A program made the position numbers and the translations under genes. The notes beneath the pieces are model-generated. The model saw nothing but the letters and a program-made list of their open reading frames with translations. It was not told where the DNA came from and searched no databases. Positions 26,388-30,493 of a stretch of 58,550 bases of DNA are shown in pieces. The first letter of the stretch is position 1. The number at the start of each line of letters is the position of its first letter. This DNA is from Alsobacter soli (lineage in GTDB: Bacteria; Pseudomonadota; Alphaproteobacteria; Rhizobiales; Beijerinckiaceae), in the NCBI RefSeq assembly GCF_003004785.1, contig NZ_PVZS01000025.1, positions 1 to 58,550 of the forward strand. The letters are read 5' to 3'.

Positions 26388-27125
26388 ATGGCTGAGGATG
26401 TCGTCGCAACCCTGCTGGGCTGCTATCGCTCGAAATCGCGCGTCCCGAGCGCGAGCGTGGGCCCGCTGAGCCGTTCGCAGGGCTTCGCCGCCCAGGCGCG
26501 CATCGCGCGGGAGCTTGGCGTCGCAGCCGGCGGCTGGAAGGTCGCCCTGCCCAATGGGGTTTCAACCGCCGCCCCCATGTTCTCGGACGTGATCCTGCCC
26601 AATGGCGCGCGCTTTCCGCTCGCGCAGGGCCCGATCGTCGAGGTCGAGCTTGGCGTTCGCCTCGCGAAGGATTTGCCGCCCCGCGCGGGCCAGCCGTACA
26701 CGCGGGAGGAGGTCGGCGACGCCATCGGCGACGCCCTGGTGGGCGTCGAGCTGATCGGCAGCCGCTATGAGGAGATGCCTCCGGCGGTCGATCCCAACGT
26801 CTGGCTCGCCGACAACATGGGCAACGCCGCCTATGTCGTGGGTGACGCCAAGCCCCTCGCCGCCATCGGCGATCCCGCGACCCTGCGCTGCCGCTACTGG
26901 GCCGACGGCGAGCTCAAGCACGACGTGGTCGGCGGACACCCGGCCGGCGACCCCATCGAGTGGCTGGTGCTCTGGGCCAACGCGCAGGATGACGCGCTCG
27001 GCGGCCTCAAGGCCGGGCAGGTGATCACCACCGGCAGCCTCATCGTGCCCGCCCGCTTCGACAGGCCGACCCGCATCGAGGCCGAGCTCGACCGCATCGG
27101 CCGCGTCACGGTCGACCTGGTTTAG
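26388..27125 (+). CDS. 2-keto-4-pentenoate hydratase-like protein (FAH superfamily)
   Basis: 245 residues of the MhpD type. The metal-site region VEVELGVRLAKDLP and GVELIGSRYEE, with DNMGNAAYVVG and ITTGSLIVP near the C-terminus, fit the FAH/hydratase fold. Hydratases of this group add water to 2-keto-4-pentenoate or isomerise keto acids; KDX dehydratase in the Weimberg route belongs to a related branch. Beside a KDPG-type aldolase it may act on a 2-keto-3-deoxy acid, but that is inference. GAGGGCGG precedes the ATG. The stop overlaps udgX convergently by 4 bp. Confidence 0.8.
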   Translation: MAEDVVATLLGCYRSKSRVPSASVGPLSRSQGFAAQARIARELGVAAGGWKVALPNGVSTAAPMFSDVILPNGARFPLAQGPIVEVELGVRLAKDLPPRAGQPYTREEVGDAIGDALVGVELIGSRYEEMPPAVDPNVWLADNMGNAAYVVGDAKPLAAIGDPATLRCRYWADGELKHDVVGGHPAGDPIEWLVLWANAQDDALGGLKAGQVITTGSLIVPARFDRPTRIEAELDRIGRVTVDLV

Positions 27126-28594
27126 CGCGCGCCGACGAGGCCACCCGCGGTTCGGAGGTCGTGGACCAGCGCCGCGAAGGCGGCCTCCTTCTCGGCCTCC
27201 GTCTGAAGCCGCAGGATGTAGGACGGGTGCGTGGCGATCACGCCCCAGCGCCCGTCCGGCAACCGGAACGGCCTCCCGCGCTCGCGCGTGACCGCGACCG
27301 CGCGCCCCAGCACCGCCTGCGCGGCCGAGGCGCCCAGCATCACCACAACCTCAGGGTCCACGGTCTCCAGTTCCCGCTCCAGCCAGCTGCGGCAGGCGTG
27401 GATTTCCCCGACGGAAGGCCGCTTGTGGATGCGCCGCTTGCCGCGCGGCTCGAATTTGAAGTGCTTCACCGCGTTGGTGACGTAGGCCCGCTCGCGTCCT
27501 ACCCCGGCTTCGGCCAGCGCCCGGTCGAACACCGCGCCGGCGGGACCCACGAAGGGCTTGCCGGCGATGTCCTCCAGGTCCCCCGGCTGCTCGCCGACCA
27601 CCATCAGTCTCGCGTCTGCGGGCCCCTCCCCCGGCACGGTCTGTGTCGCCTGCTCCCACAACGGACATGCCCGGCACGCGCGCGCCGCCTCGGCGATGGC
27701 GGGCAGGCCGGTGGGTCCGGCGGATCCCTGGTCGGGGGCGATCTCCACGACCGCGCCCCTGCGCTGCACCGGCAAGGTCGGCGCCGCCTCGATCATGGCG
27801 GCAGTGCGCGTCGCGGCTGTCGCCACGAGATCCGGGATGAGCTGTGCCTCCGGCAGGTTCTTCCAGAATCGCTTGGGCATCTCGGCCCGCATGGCCTCTG
27901 GGTTCAGCCGAGCCGGATTGAACACGTTGGCGTAATAGGAGCGCCAGAGGTCCTCCAGCGGATCGCCCTGCTGCGCCGCGCTGGGGTGTGCCCCGGGTCC
28001 GATCAGCAGGTCCTCGCCTGTCCAATGCGCCGAGCGCTCGGGAGTCAGGATGGTCCAGCGCAGGCTGGCGAAGCGCTTGACGAAGAACGGCGCAGCCGCC
28101 TCGAGGATGTGGTGGTCGGGCTCGTACCAGGCCACGAAGGCCTCGCCGTCCGGCCCCTGCACGTCGCGGAAGCGCACGAAGGCGTGCATCTTGTGGATGT
28201 CACGACGCACGGCCTTCGCCATCTCGCGAAACTGGATCACGTCCGGGTCGGAGGCCAGGTCCAGCAGGCGCGGCTCCTCCGAAAGCCGCCACAGCAGCCG
28301 ATAGATCAGCCGAAACCGCTCCCGATCCCGGTGCAGCCCGACAGTGCGGGCGTCGTCGACGAAGGCGCGCGACACGCGCGGCGCCGGCCGCGCCGGAGCC
28401 GGGGCCGCACTCTCCGCAGAGCCGAGCCCGCCTCCCTGGCCGAACAGGTCGACCTCCGCTTCGTCGCCTGTCAGCCAGGTGGTCCGGTGCGGCGGAACGC
28501 CCTCGGCGAGCAGCTTCCGCGCGGCCTCGCGAAAGCCGTCGAAGTCCGTCTCCCCGGCCAGCTGGACGCGATGCAGATCCCCGTCGCGCGACAC
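27122..28594 (-). CDS. udgX: UdgX family uracil-DNA glycosylase fused to DUF4130
   Basis: 490 residues. The first half is a DUF4130 domain (FRLIYRLLWRLSEEP, KMHAFVRF, WYEPDHHILEAAAPFFVKRF, RYYANVFNPARLNP). The C-terminal half is UdgX: GEQPGDLEDIAGKPFVGPAG, the insertion KRRIHKRPS and HPSYIL. In UdgX the histidine of KRRIH (H390 here) becomes covalently linked to the abasic sugar after uracil removal. Cysteines in ARACRACPLW and HACRSW could hold the Fe-S cluster. The GTG at 28594 follows CGGAGCC. The gene lies 18 bp behind the radical SAM gene, as in other bacteria. The SOS box upstream of the pair implies damage induction. Confidence 0.92.
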   Translation of the reverse strand: MSRDGDLHRVQLAGETDFDGFREAARKLLAEGVPPHRTTWLTGDEAEVDLFGQGGGLGSAESAAPAPARPAPRVSRAFVDDARTVGLHRDRERFRLIYRLLWRLSEEPRLLDLASDPDVIQFREMAKAVRRDIHKMHAFVRFRDVQGPDGEAFVAWYEPDHHILEAAAPFFVKRFASLRWTILTPERSAHWTGEDLLIGPGAHPSAAQQGDPLEDLWRSYYANVFNPARLNPEAMRAEMPKRFWKNLPEAQLIPDLVATAATRTAAMIEAAPTLPVQRRGAVVEIAPDQGSAGPTGLPAIAEAARACRACPLWEQATQTVPGEGPADARLMVVGEQPGDLEDIAGKPFVGPAGAVFDRALAEAGVGRERAYVTNAVKHFKFEPRGKRRIHKRPSVGEIHACRSWLERELETVDPEVVVMLGASAAQAVLGRAVAVTRERGRPFRLPDGRWGVIATHPSYILRLQTEAEKEAAFAALVHDLRTAGGLVGAR

Positions 28595-28612
28595 CGTACG
28601 GCTCCGCTTCGC

Positions 28613-29833
28613 TCAGGCCGCAAAAAGGTCGAGCTGCCGCGCCGGAGCCGGTTTCAGCCAGGCCTGCAGGTCGGCGCGATCCAGGAGCCGCGTGGGGCGA
28701 TGGTCCGGCAGGACCAGGAAGGGTGACACCTTCCGCATGGGCACCTTCAGGCGCGCCAGATCGTCGCTGCGCAGGCTGCGCACGCGCCGCGAAGAGATGA
28801 TGCGCTCGACGGTGCGCACGCCGAGCCCCGGCACGCGCAGGAGCTCCTCCCGGGTCGCCTTGTTGACGTCCAGCGGGAAGCGCTCGCGGTGCTTGAGCGC
28901 CCAGGCGAGCTTGGGGTCCATGTCGAGCGACAGCATGCCGGCCTCGCCGCCCGCGACGATCTCGTTGACGTCGAACCCGTAGAATCGCATCAGCCAGTCG
29001 GCCTGGTACAGCCGGTTCTCGCGGATCAGCGGCGCCGGCTTGAGCGGCAGCGCCTTGCTCGAATCCGGGATAGGGCTGAAAGCCGAGTAGTACACGCGCC
29101 GCAGCCTGTAGCCGCCGTAGAGGGCGGCGCTGGTCGTGAGGATATGCTGGTCGTTGGCGTCGTCCGCCCCGACGATCATTTGGGTCGACTGGCCTGCGGG
29201 CGCGAACACGCGCCCGTTGCTCCGCGGCGCCTCGTCGATCACGCCCCGCAGGTGACCCATGGAGCGCCGGATCGCCCCGATCTCCTTGCGAGGCGCAAGC
29301 CTTTCCAGGCTGTCCGCCTTCGGAAGCTCGATGTTGACGCTGAGGCGGTCCGCCCAGCGCCCGGCTTCCTCCACCAGCTTCGGATCGGCGTTCGGGATCA
29401 CCTTCAGGTGGATGTAGCCCCGGAAGCCGTGCTCCTCGCGCAGCGTTCGCGCCACCCGGACCAGTTCCTCCATCGTGTAGTCCGGGCTCTTGATGATGCC
29501 GGAGGAGAGAAACAGTCCTTCGATGTAGTTGCGCTTGTAGAAGCCCAGCGTGAGTTTCACGACCTCCTCGACCGTGAACCGCGCCCGCCGCACATGGCTG
29601 GACGACCGGTTGATGCAGTAGAGGCAGTCGTAGATGCAGGAGTTGGTCAGCAGGATCTTCAGCAGGGACACGCAGCGCCCGTCTGGCGTGTAGCTGTGGC
29701 AAATGCCGGACCCTCCTGAGGAGCCGATGCCCTTGCGGTCGAGCGAGTCGCGCTTGGCCCCGCCGCTCGAGGCGCAGGAGGCGTCGTACTTGGCGGCGTC
29801 CGCCAGGATCTCCAGCTTGCTCTTAAGGTCCAT
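28613..29833 (-). CDS. Radical SAM protein, putative DNA modification/repair partner of UdgX
   Basis: 406 residues. The radical SAM cluster CIYDCLYC has cysteines at 66, 70 and 73. An additional N-terminal cysteine-rich segment (KYDASCASSGG, SGICHSYTPDGRC) may bind a second cluster. A helix-hairpin-helix DNA-binding motif (LDVNKATREELLRVPGLGVRTVERI) lies near 310-345. This matches the family described as putative DNA modification/repair radical SAM, paired with UdgX-DUF4130. The ATG at 29833 follows the LexA box by about 36 bp. The reaction is unknown. Confidence 0.9.
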   Translation of the reverse strand: MDLKSKLEILADAAKYDASCASSGGAKRDSLDRKGIGSSGGSGICHSYTPDGRCVSLLKILLTNSCIYDCLYCINRSSSHVRRARFTVEEVVKLTLGFYKRNYIEGLFLSSGIIKSPDYTMEELVRVARTLREEHGFRGYIHLKVIPNADPKLVEEAGRWADRLSVNIELPKADSLERLAPRKEIGAIRRSMGHLRGVIDEAPRSNGRVFAPAGQSTQMIVGADDANDQHILTTSAALYGGYRLRRVYYSAFSPIPDSSKALPLKPAPLIRENRLYQADWLMRFYGFDVNEIVAGGEAGMLSLDMDPKLAWALKHRERFPLDVNKATREELLRVPGLGVRTVERIISSRRVRSLRSDDLARLKVPMRKVSPFLVLPDHRPTRLLDRADLQAWLKPAPARQLDLFAA

Positions 29834-29858
29834 GCTGTCCGTTCCCGAATGAGGCGGA

Positions 29859-29887
29859 AAGCTAGCGTGTTCCTTTTTCGTTCTCAA
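29859..29887 (-). promoter_or_regulatory. Candidate promoter of the radical SAM-udgX operon
   Basis: Minus-strand TTGAGA (29882-29887), a 17-bp spacer and TAGCTT (29859-29864). The LexA box occupies most of the spacer and touches the -35, so binding would block RNA polymerase. Confidence 0.65.
29869..29883. promoter_or_regulatory. Alphaproteobacterial LexA (SOS) box
   Basis: GTTC-CTTTTTC-GTTC, an exact match to the GTTC-N7-GTTC consensus of alphaproteobacterial LexA. It reads GAAC-N7-GAAC on the minus strand, 36 bp upstream of the radical SAM start and 92 bp before the divergent DUF5872 gene. Confidence 0.8.
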
Positions 29888-29974: not shown

Positions 29975-30493
29975 ATGAGCAAGACAGCGGAGAAGACGGA
30001 TCCCAAGCTCTGGGACAAGGTGAAGCGCCAGGTCCAGAAGGGCGACAAGGGCGGGCGCGCCGGCCAGTGGTCGGCCCGCAAGGCTCAGATGGCCGTGCAG
30101 GAATACAAGCACGAGGGCGGCGGCTACGAAGGCCCGAAGACGACCGACAACCACCTGGTCGAGTGGACGCAGGAGGAATGGGGCACGAAGTCAGGCCGCA
30201 AGAGCGGCGAGACCGGCGAGCGCTACCTGCCGAAGAAAGCCCGCGAGCGCCTGTCCAACAACGAATACAAGCGGACCACCGCCAAGAAGCGTGCGGACAC
30301 CCGCAAGGGCAAGCAGTTTTCGGCTCAGCCCCGGGACATTGCGCGGAAAGTCGCCCAGGATCGTCATCACGACGGCTCCGGGCGTCGCGAACCCACAAAG
30401 GCCGCCCTCTACGCGGAAGCGCGCCGCCGCGACCTTCCTGGGCGGTCTCGCATGAACCGGGATCAGCTTCAGCGAGCCCTCGCCCGAGGCTGA
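29975..30493 (+). CDS. DUF5872 protein with C-terminal Rho-N/SAP-like motif
   Basis: 172 residues, strongly basic. The first 120 match DUF5872: KTDPKLWDKVKRQVQKGDKG, GQWSARKAQMAVQEYK, WTQEEWGTKSG, GERYLPKKARERL. The last 35 (EPTKAALYAEARRRDLPGRS followed by RMNRDQLQRAL) resemble a Rho N-terminal/SAP helix-extension-helix that binds nucleic acid. It is divergent from the SOS-controlled UdgX pair and shares the 141-bp gap. GAGGAGAG precedes the ATG. Function unknown; nucleic-acid binding is inferred. Confidence 0.8.
   Translation: MSKTAEKTDPKLWDKVKRQVQKGDKGGRAGQWSARKAQMAVQEYKHEGGGYEGPKTTDNHLVEWTQEEWGTKSGRKSGETGERYLPKKARERLSNNEYKRTTAKKRADTRKGKQFSAQPRDIARKVAQDRHHDGSGRREPTKAALYAEARRRDLPGRSRMNRDQLQRALARG

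Follow-up and report, generated by a model that had tools for sequence, protein, structure and literature searches.

A conserved LexA box and a clamp-like tail suggest an SOS-controlled radical SAM-DUF4130 unit for DNA lesions in Alsobacter soli

A 58,550-base stretch of the Alsobacter soli genome (contig NZ_PVZS01000025.1; hereafter the window) raises the question of what a radical S-adenosylmethionine (SAM) protein does beside a DUF4130-UdgX fusion protein, and whether DNA damage switches on the genes for both. The radical SAM protein belongs to TIGR03916, which we take to be the same family as COG4277 and whose NCBI name, rSAM_link_UDG, states no reaction. SOS control and gene pairing are already known in outline. 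In the parts available to us, PMC8565304 places a two-gene COG1573-COG4277 operon of Bacteroidetes in a predicted LexA network and cites SOS regulation of such a uracil-DNA glycosylase (UDG)-based system in Verrucomicrobia and Alphaproteobacteria, one of its sources being the Caulobacter SOS regulon paper. The analysis of the window and its relatives makes it fairly probable that the two genes form a LexA-repressed operon encoding an SOS-induced, clamp-tethered radical SAM-DUF4130 lesion-processing unit, to which UdgX is an add-on.

The window contains a single exact GTTCN7GTTC, GTTCCTTTTTCGTTC on the plus strand (GAACGAAAAAGGAAC reading toward the radical SAM gene), and 35 bases separate its near edge from the radical SAM start codon. 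A preliminary description of this DNA had called it a perfect LexA box, which is fair, and its letters and coordinates were right. Since 1.23 exact matches are expected by chance per window of the same composition, and at least one occurred in 71 of 100 shuffles, the box alone proves nothing; the case for it is therefore carried by conservation.

In order to follow the box in relatives, three surveys were used, in all of which start codons were extrapolated by alignment to the window protein. In the phylum sample (398 Pseudomonadota genomes, 84 over the TIGR03916 cut-off, all 84 loci read), the exact alphaproteobacterial box was found at 55 of 55 alphaproteobacterial copies, at none of which CTGTN8ACAG, the E. 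coli LexA box, occurred exactly and at two of which it occurred within one mismatch. The 29 copies from other classes showed the reverse: the alphaproteobacterial box was present at none, and CTGTN8ACAG was exact at 19 and within one mismatch at 24. The two groups control for each other, and the spacers, offsets and orientation of the boxes differ among these loci. The class sample of 289 alphaproteobacterial genomes gave 18 copies over the cut-off, own genome included, and 17 carried the exact box, its far edge 25 to 50 bp upstream of the estimated start (a C-terminal fragment below the cut-off, L062, was left out of this count). The sole box-less copy belongs to G198; of six genomes examined for LexA, G198 alone had no match over the cut-off, its best one spanning profile positions 85-201. 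Among the named loci, which are the best 80 of 593 relatives, 68 had an exact box within 200 bp, and seven of the other 12 are titled as beta-, gammaproteobacterial or verrucomicrobial. Of these seven, three betaproteobacterial loci (L086, L131 and L142) have CTGTN8CCAG running into the start codon, as read by eye, and Spongiibacter L147 has it 41 bp ahead of the start; no such CTGT-type site was seen at two Xanthomonadaceae loci or at L124. CTGTN8ACAG is also exact at a copy carried on a Caballeronia plasmid. Because the site is conserved and its motif changes between bacterial classes, SOS control is strongly supported, and the window box is very probably a functional DNA-damage (LexA) switch. 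The preliminary description had placed the pair in an SOS context and had pointed to homologous pairs as the place to look for the box; its SOS reading is thus supported.

The host genome (5.19 Mb) holds 123 exact GTTCN7GTTC sites, a density of 0.0024 per 100 bp, against 62 for a reversed-pattern control. Its lexA scores over the cut-off (C5:7188-7883, profile positions 4-202 of 203) and has a box upstream at C5:7089-7103; boxes also precede recA, rmuC and the gene ahead of imuB, which we take from its position to be imuA. A spacer matrix was built from 74 different boxes of homologous loci, own locus left out, and used to rank 100 of the 123 boxes, the other 23 being unranked. The window box came at tied rank 8, among boxes of the core SOS genes recA (2), the imuB cassette (4), rmuC (11) and lexA (14). 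The tie is with a box on contig 28 (L037, 2494) that shares all 15 bases and lies between, or within the called start of, a metallo-beta-lactamase-fold open reading frame (ORF) and a DUF2125 ORF. Two further boxed loci were observed in this genome. On contig 4 (L031, box at 2582) a second boxed radical SAM gene encodes a PA0069-family (NF033668) protein; the family match begins with ORF residue 109, near locus base 2704, the T-rich box lies about 100 bp before the matched domain, and the protein resembles TIGR03916 at CxxxCxxC only. On contig 45 (L039, box 2491-2505) a small DUF3072 gene begins 11 bases past an exact box and is a possible SOS gene.

The preliminary description had also set the box inside a TTGAGA-17-TAGCTT promoter. 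Both hexamers are present and the first agrees with its consensus at five of six positions; the second agrees at three of six, and a promoter scan found no sigma-70 promoter at its threshold, so that the promoter half of the claim is only partly supported. In the seven rows compared, from relatives and the window, L074, L056, L224 and L225 likewise have a TTGA that overlaps the box, and L223, L226 and L243 are without it in that form. Since the box-overlapping TTGA recurs in relatives, a -35 element at the radical SAM gene is plausible. TAGCTT is a weak candidate for the -10 element and is not established.

Next to the box, it is the gene content of the loci that indicates which proteins belong together. 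DUF4130 accompanies the radical SAM gene in all 84 phylum-sample genomes, adjoining it in 82 and lying about 3 kb downstream in two. UdgX is fused to DUF4130 in 60 of the 80 classifiable partners; of the four unclassified ones, two are truncated where the locus stops and two fall beyond it. L178, L184 and L220, counted among the 60, have a tblastn UdgX match and a long ORF in which the exact GEQPGD letters are missing. The other 20 of the 80 are complete DUF4130-only partners, 18 of them outside the Alphaproteobacteria, and the Spirosoma and Acinetobacter copies are likewise DUF4130-only. In the class sample, 17 genomes encode a full-length radical SAM protein, and in five of them (G252, G198, G175, G162 and G271) no UdgX over the cut-off was found anywhere; these five have weaker, family-4-like matches instead. 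G045 and G182, without a full-length radical SAM protein, were excluded from this count. We read these observations as a constant radical SAM-DUF4130 unit to which UdgX is optional. Caulobacter vibrioides, among the control genomes, matches both families, TIGR03916 and DUF4130. We take the NCBIfam text for these models to note the pairing and the frequent fusion.

We also considered UdgX itself as the item under SOS control and rejected this: five stand-alone UdgX genes were read, one from the own genome and four from relatives, and four of these had no box in the 2.4-2.6 kb around them. The own-genome stand-alone gene (C2:91878-92617, L244) has a 226 amino acid (aa) open frame in which RRIH is kept; the box at L244 is exact but GC-rich, and the earliest start codon that could follow an in-frame stop lies 140 bp from the beginning of the box. 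Five of the 80 named loci, of which four bear the names of sphingomonad genera, have a hemerythrin HHE gene between the radical SAM and DUF4130-UdgX genes, each matching PF01814 above the cut-off; its product might shield Fe-S chemistry from oxygen.

The radical SAM protein scores 544.5 bits against the TIGR03916 cut-off of 343.5. Six cysteines, C20, C45, C54, C66, C70 and C73, together with H46, are invariant in 179 distinct proteins of the family, among which a divergent Gemmatirosa homologue (L164) is not counted. The last three cysteines form the CxxxCxxC cluster motif. Two-cluster radical SAM enzymes such as lipoyl synthase and MiaB have three N-terminal cysteines ahead of that motif, in a spacing typical of each family. 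In the window protein the first three are separated by 24 and 8 residues, a spacing that we presume to be unlike that of lipoyl synthase, and they are possibly an auxiliary metal site. The Gemmatirosa homologue keeps CxxxCxxC and is missing C20, C45 and C54, and its locus has no DUF4130 match. A structure model of the window protein has a mean per-residue confidence (pLDDT) of 84, and a fold search with it returned radical SAM enzymes with E values down to 1.4e-6 and query template-modelling (TM) scores of 0.31-0.44; MgmA, lipoyl synthase, AprD4, biotin synthase and HydE came first and MiaB slightly lower, among the best 50 of 87 matches. Ten records from a phage collection (H61-H70), labelled 'Bacteriophage sp.' from human faeces in eight cases and 'Acinetobacter phage' in two, also match the radical SAM protein.

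The same protein carries QLDLF at its C-terminus, within a predicted disordered tail (residues 400-406 have pLDDT under 50). Bacterial proteins of replication and repair bind the beta clamp through a motif of this QLxLF pattern. A strict form, Q[LM]xL[FL], was found within the last 18 residues of 123 of the 179 distinct proteins and nowhere else in them, whereas 300 shuffles gave 1.9 on average and 8 at most (L061, cut by a contig end, was left out of the tail count). Q[LM]xLF is present in 49 of the 80 named loci, against a shuffle mean of 0.3. A wide pattern fits 178 of 179 tails (shuffle mean 11, maximum 23); since it was chosen after the tails were seen, we argue from the strict count alone. 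Similar tails occur in the Spirosoma, Phocaeicola, Fusobacterium and Acinetobacter copies. The QLDLF tail looks like a tether of the radical SAM protein to the replication sliding clamp. A literature search on radical SAM proteins with the sliding clamp or a clamp-binding motif gave nothing on TIGR03916 in the titles and abstract openings of the matches listed, and among these matches we found no report of its clamp-like tail or six invariant cysteines.

Of the two domains of the partner protein, DUF4130 scores 149.2 bits with the Pfam model, whose cut-off is 27, and its structure model has a mean pLDDT of 87.5. Its invariant residues include H134, R141, W156, E158 and R174, with H161 nearly so, and look like an active site. 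A PAP phosphatase, the best fold match in the Protein Data Bank (PDB; E 0.047, query TM 0.24), was not used as a relative, and the DUF4130 profile gave a single row against PDB sequences, at E 0.13. In the UdgX half the KRRIH with its His, which the preliminary description had named, is indeed present, and an alignment shows the crosslinking-type His in all 64 proteins compared, namely the window and 63 of the 80 named loci (those with a complete ORF under 560 aa and GEQPG; the other 17 were left out). Where present, UdgX looks active. Feature positions are collected in Table 1.

Table 1. Positions of the features discussed, in window coordinates unless a locus is named.
Feature	Position	Strand	Basis or remark
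LexA (SOS) box	29869..29883		GTTCCTTTTTCGTTC on +; GAACGAAAAAGGAAC reading toward radical SAM gene
-35-like hexamer TTGAGA	29882..29887	-	overlaps LexA box; TTGACA match 5/6
Weak -10-like hexamer TAGCTT	29859..29864	-	17 bases from -35; TATAAT match 3/6
Radical SAM gene, TIGR03916 (rSAM_link_UDG), 406 aa	28613..29833	-	ATG start 29833; profile match
Three further invariant cysteines C20, C45, C54	29672..29776	-	179 distinct proteins
CxxxCxxC radical SAM cluster motif, C66/C70/C73	29615..29638	-	invariant, 179 distinct proteins
Helix-hairpin-helix region, HHH_3	28784..28873	-	21.1 bits, under Pfam cut-off 27
QLDLF, beta-clamp-binding-like motif, residues 400-404	28622..28636	-	sequence pattern; putative binding
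DUF4130-UdgX fusion gene, 490 aa	27122..28594	-	ORF holds GEQPGD and KRRIH; profile matches
DUF4130 / TIGR03915 domain	27845..28552	-	226.4 bits, cut-off 112.25
UdgX / TIGR03914 domain	27149..27841	-	313 bits, cut-off 189.95
KRRIH R-loop with crosslinking-type His	27425..27439	-	alignment
Hemerythrin HHE gene	L106:4768-5256
Hemerythrin HHE gene	L125:4153-4635
Hemerythrin HHE gene	L138:5089-5703
Hemerythrin HHE gene	L148:4809-5288
Hemerythrin HHE gene	L150:4994-5467

Two other observations concern the window. A divergent 172-aa gene at 29975-30493 on the plus strand, without a match in Pfam or NCBIfam, starts about 92 bp from the box, which could face that gene too. Across the whole window, GAACN2-8GTTC inverted repeats are over-represented, with 13 found against 4.6 expected and a maximum of 11 in 100 shuffles.

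Putting these elements together, we propose that LexA would bind the direct repeat overlapping the -35-like hexamer, and that RecA-driven cleavage of LexA would let the radical SAM gene and its downstream neighbour be transcribed. The C-terminal QLDLF would then hold the radical SAM protein at the sliding clamp and the helix-hairpin-helix region would hold it on DNA, where SAM-radical chemistry, with DUF4130 as the constant partner, may act on a damaged base where replication has stalled or has just passed. UdgX would be a dispensable module that captures uracil or abasic sites; most alphaproteobacterial copies have it fused to DUF4130. A bolder version, which we offer tentatively and consider less probable than its negation, is that TIGR03916 and DUF4130 make up a replisome-tethered, SOS-induced enzyme that docks on the clamp through QLxLF, carries two Fe-S sites (C66/C70/C73 and C20/C45/C54) and reverses or remodels a replication-blocking lesion by a chemistry new to DNA repair; DUF4130 would be a new fold and would hold a second active site.

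Several observations weigh against this proposal. Five of the 73 named loci whose titles are not beta-, gammaproteobacterial or verrucomicrobial (L078, L083, L117, L127 and L152) are box-less, three of them with a one-mismatch box, and five of the 29 phylum-sample copies from other classes have no recognisable box (L167, L218 and, from one genus, L199, L211 and L222). The class and phylum samples have seven genomes in common, and relatedness makes the counts non-independent. The strict tail form is missing from 56 of the 179 proteins, and the clamp motif was judged on sequence alone. The DUF4130 fold gave no match in the PDB at E 0.001 or better. The C20/C45/C54 stretch is a low-confidence part of the model, and for that reason a second Fe-S cluster is only a guess.

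Other functions can be weighed against the same data. One is SOS-induced uracil base-excision repair, in which the operon would deal with misincorporations by error-prone polymerases, as PMC8565304 proposes, and the radical SAM protein would be an accessory; the intact UdgX domain of the window agrees with this. However, UdgX is the dispensable part and the radical SAM-DUF4130 pair the constant one, and UdgX bonds to its product rather than releasing it (PMC10359453), which makes this reading unlikely. No better placed is direct reversal of a UV photoproduct in the style of spore photoproduct lyase. The radical SAM fold matches, the helix-hairpin-helix region and SOS control all suit it, and PMC3765255 describes DUF4130 as a predicted mutagenesis-related enzyme tied to 'SplB-like' radical SAM photolyases and to UDGs. 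Against it stand the three extra invariant cysteines and, more weakly, the lack of a spore photoproduct lyase, both among the 21 PDB sequences that the family profile picked up and among the best 50 of the 87 fold matches; a control search with the own-genome PA0069-family protein likewise returned no lyase, so these negatives are weak.

The preliminary description had suggested another role for the radical SAM enzyme, namely to reverse or resolve the covalent crosslink between UdgX and DNA. The fusion of UdgX in 60 of 80 partners and the fully kept His speak for it, but as a general role it is not supported, given the 20 partners without UdgX, the five of 17 genomes with the radical SAM protein and no UdgX over the cut-off, and the four of five stand-alone UdgX genes without a box; for the fused versions it may yet apply. 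PMC10359453, moreover, points to RecA-dependent pathways or to proteases for resolving the crosslink, as possibilities, and we regard crosslink reversal as improbable, somewhat more so than the two readings above. That the box arose by chance, with the operon outside LexA control, was rejected as extremely improbable: about one exact box per window is expected, yet all 55 alphaproteobacterial copies are boxed and the copies outside that class switch reciprocally to CTGTN8ACAG.

The SOS-controlled radical SAM-DUF4130 unit that we favour shares features with several known systems. Like the COG1573-COG4277 operon it has two genes, a UDG and predicted LexA control, but its UDG is fused, as DUF4130-UdgX; the available parts of PMC8565304 mention neither a clamp-like tail nor six cysteines. 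With the UdgX of PMC10359453 it shares the GEQPG motif and the KRRIH R-loop with its His, and its UdgX differs in being the C-terminal half of a DUF4130 fusion behind a radical SAM gene; 'DUF4130', 'radical' and 'operon' were not found in the available text of that paper. The ImuA-ImuB-DnaE2 mutasome is SOS-controlled in Caulobacter (PMC1839093) and mycobacterial ImuB is predicted to act via the beta clamp (PMC11791113). SOS control and the link of ImuB to the clamp are thus the likeness, whereas that is a polymerase system and here there is a radical SAM protein and no polymerase. Spore photoproduct lyase, or SplB, is SOS-linked in some groups (PMC3323433) and is a radical SAM protein acting on DNA, as is predicted for the window protein, which differs in its extra cysteines, its DUF4130 partner and, as weak evidence, the lack of a lyase match. 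CC2333 is among the Caulobacter UDGs (PMC1839093), and its identity as the SOS-regulon one is not established.

For the TIGR03916 family, over its cut-off in 84 of 398 sampled Pseudomonadota and 18 of 289 sampled alphaproteobacterial genomes, the upstream sites described here mean that it very probably belongs among the damage-response genes. If binding of the clamp-like tail is true, the site of action would be replicating DNA, and the finding that DUF4130 is the constant member of the pairing points to DUF4130 as the protein to study together with the radical SAM enzyme. The focus thereby moves from reversal of a UdgX crosslink to the action of the radical SAM protein and DUF4130, with DnaN, on replication-blocking lesions, and the conserved clamp-like tail makes the job of this radical enzyme easier to test.

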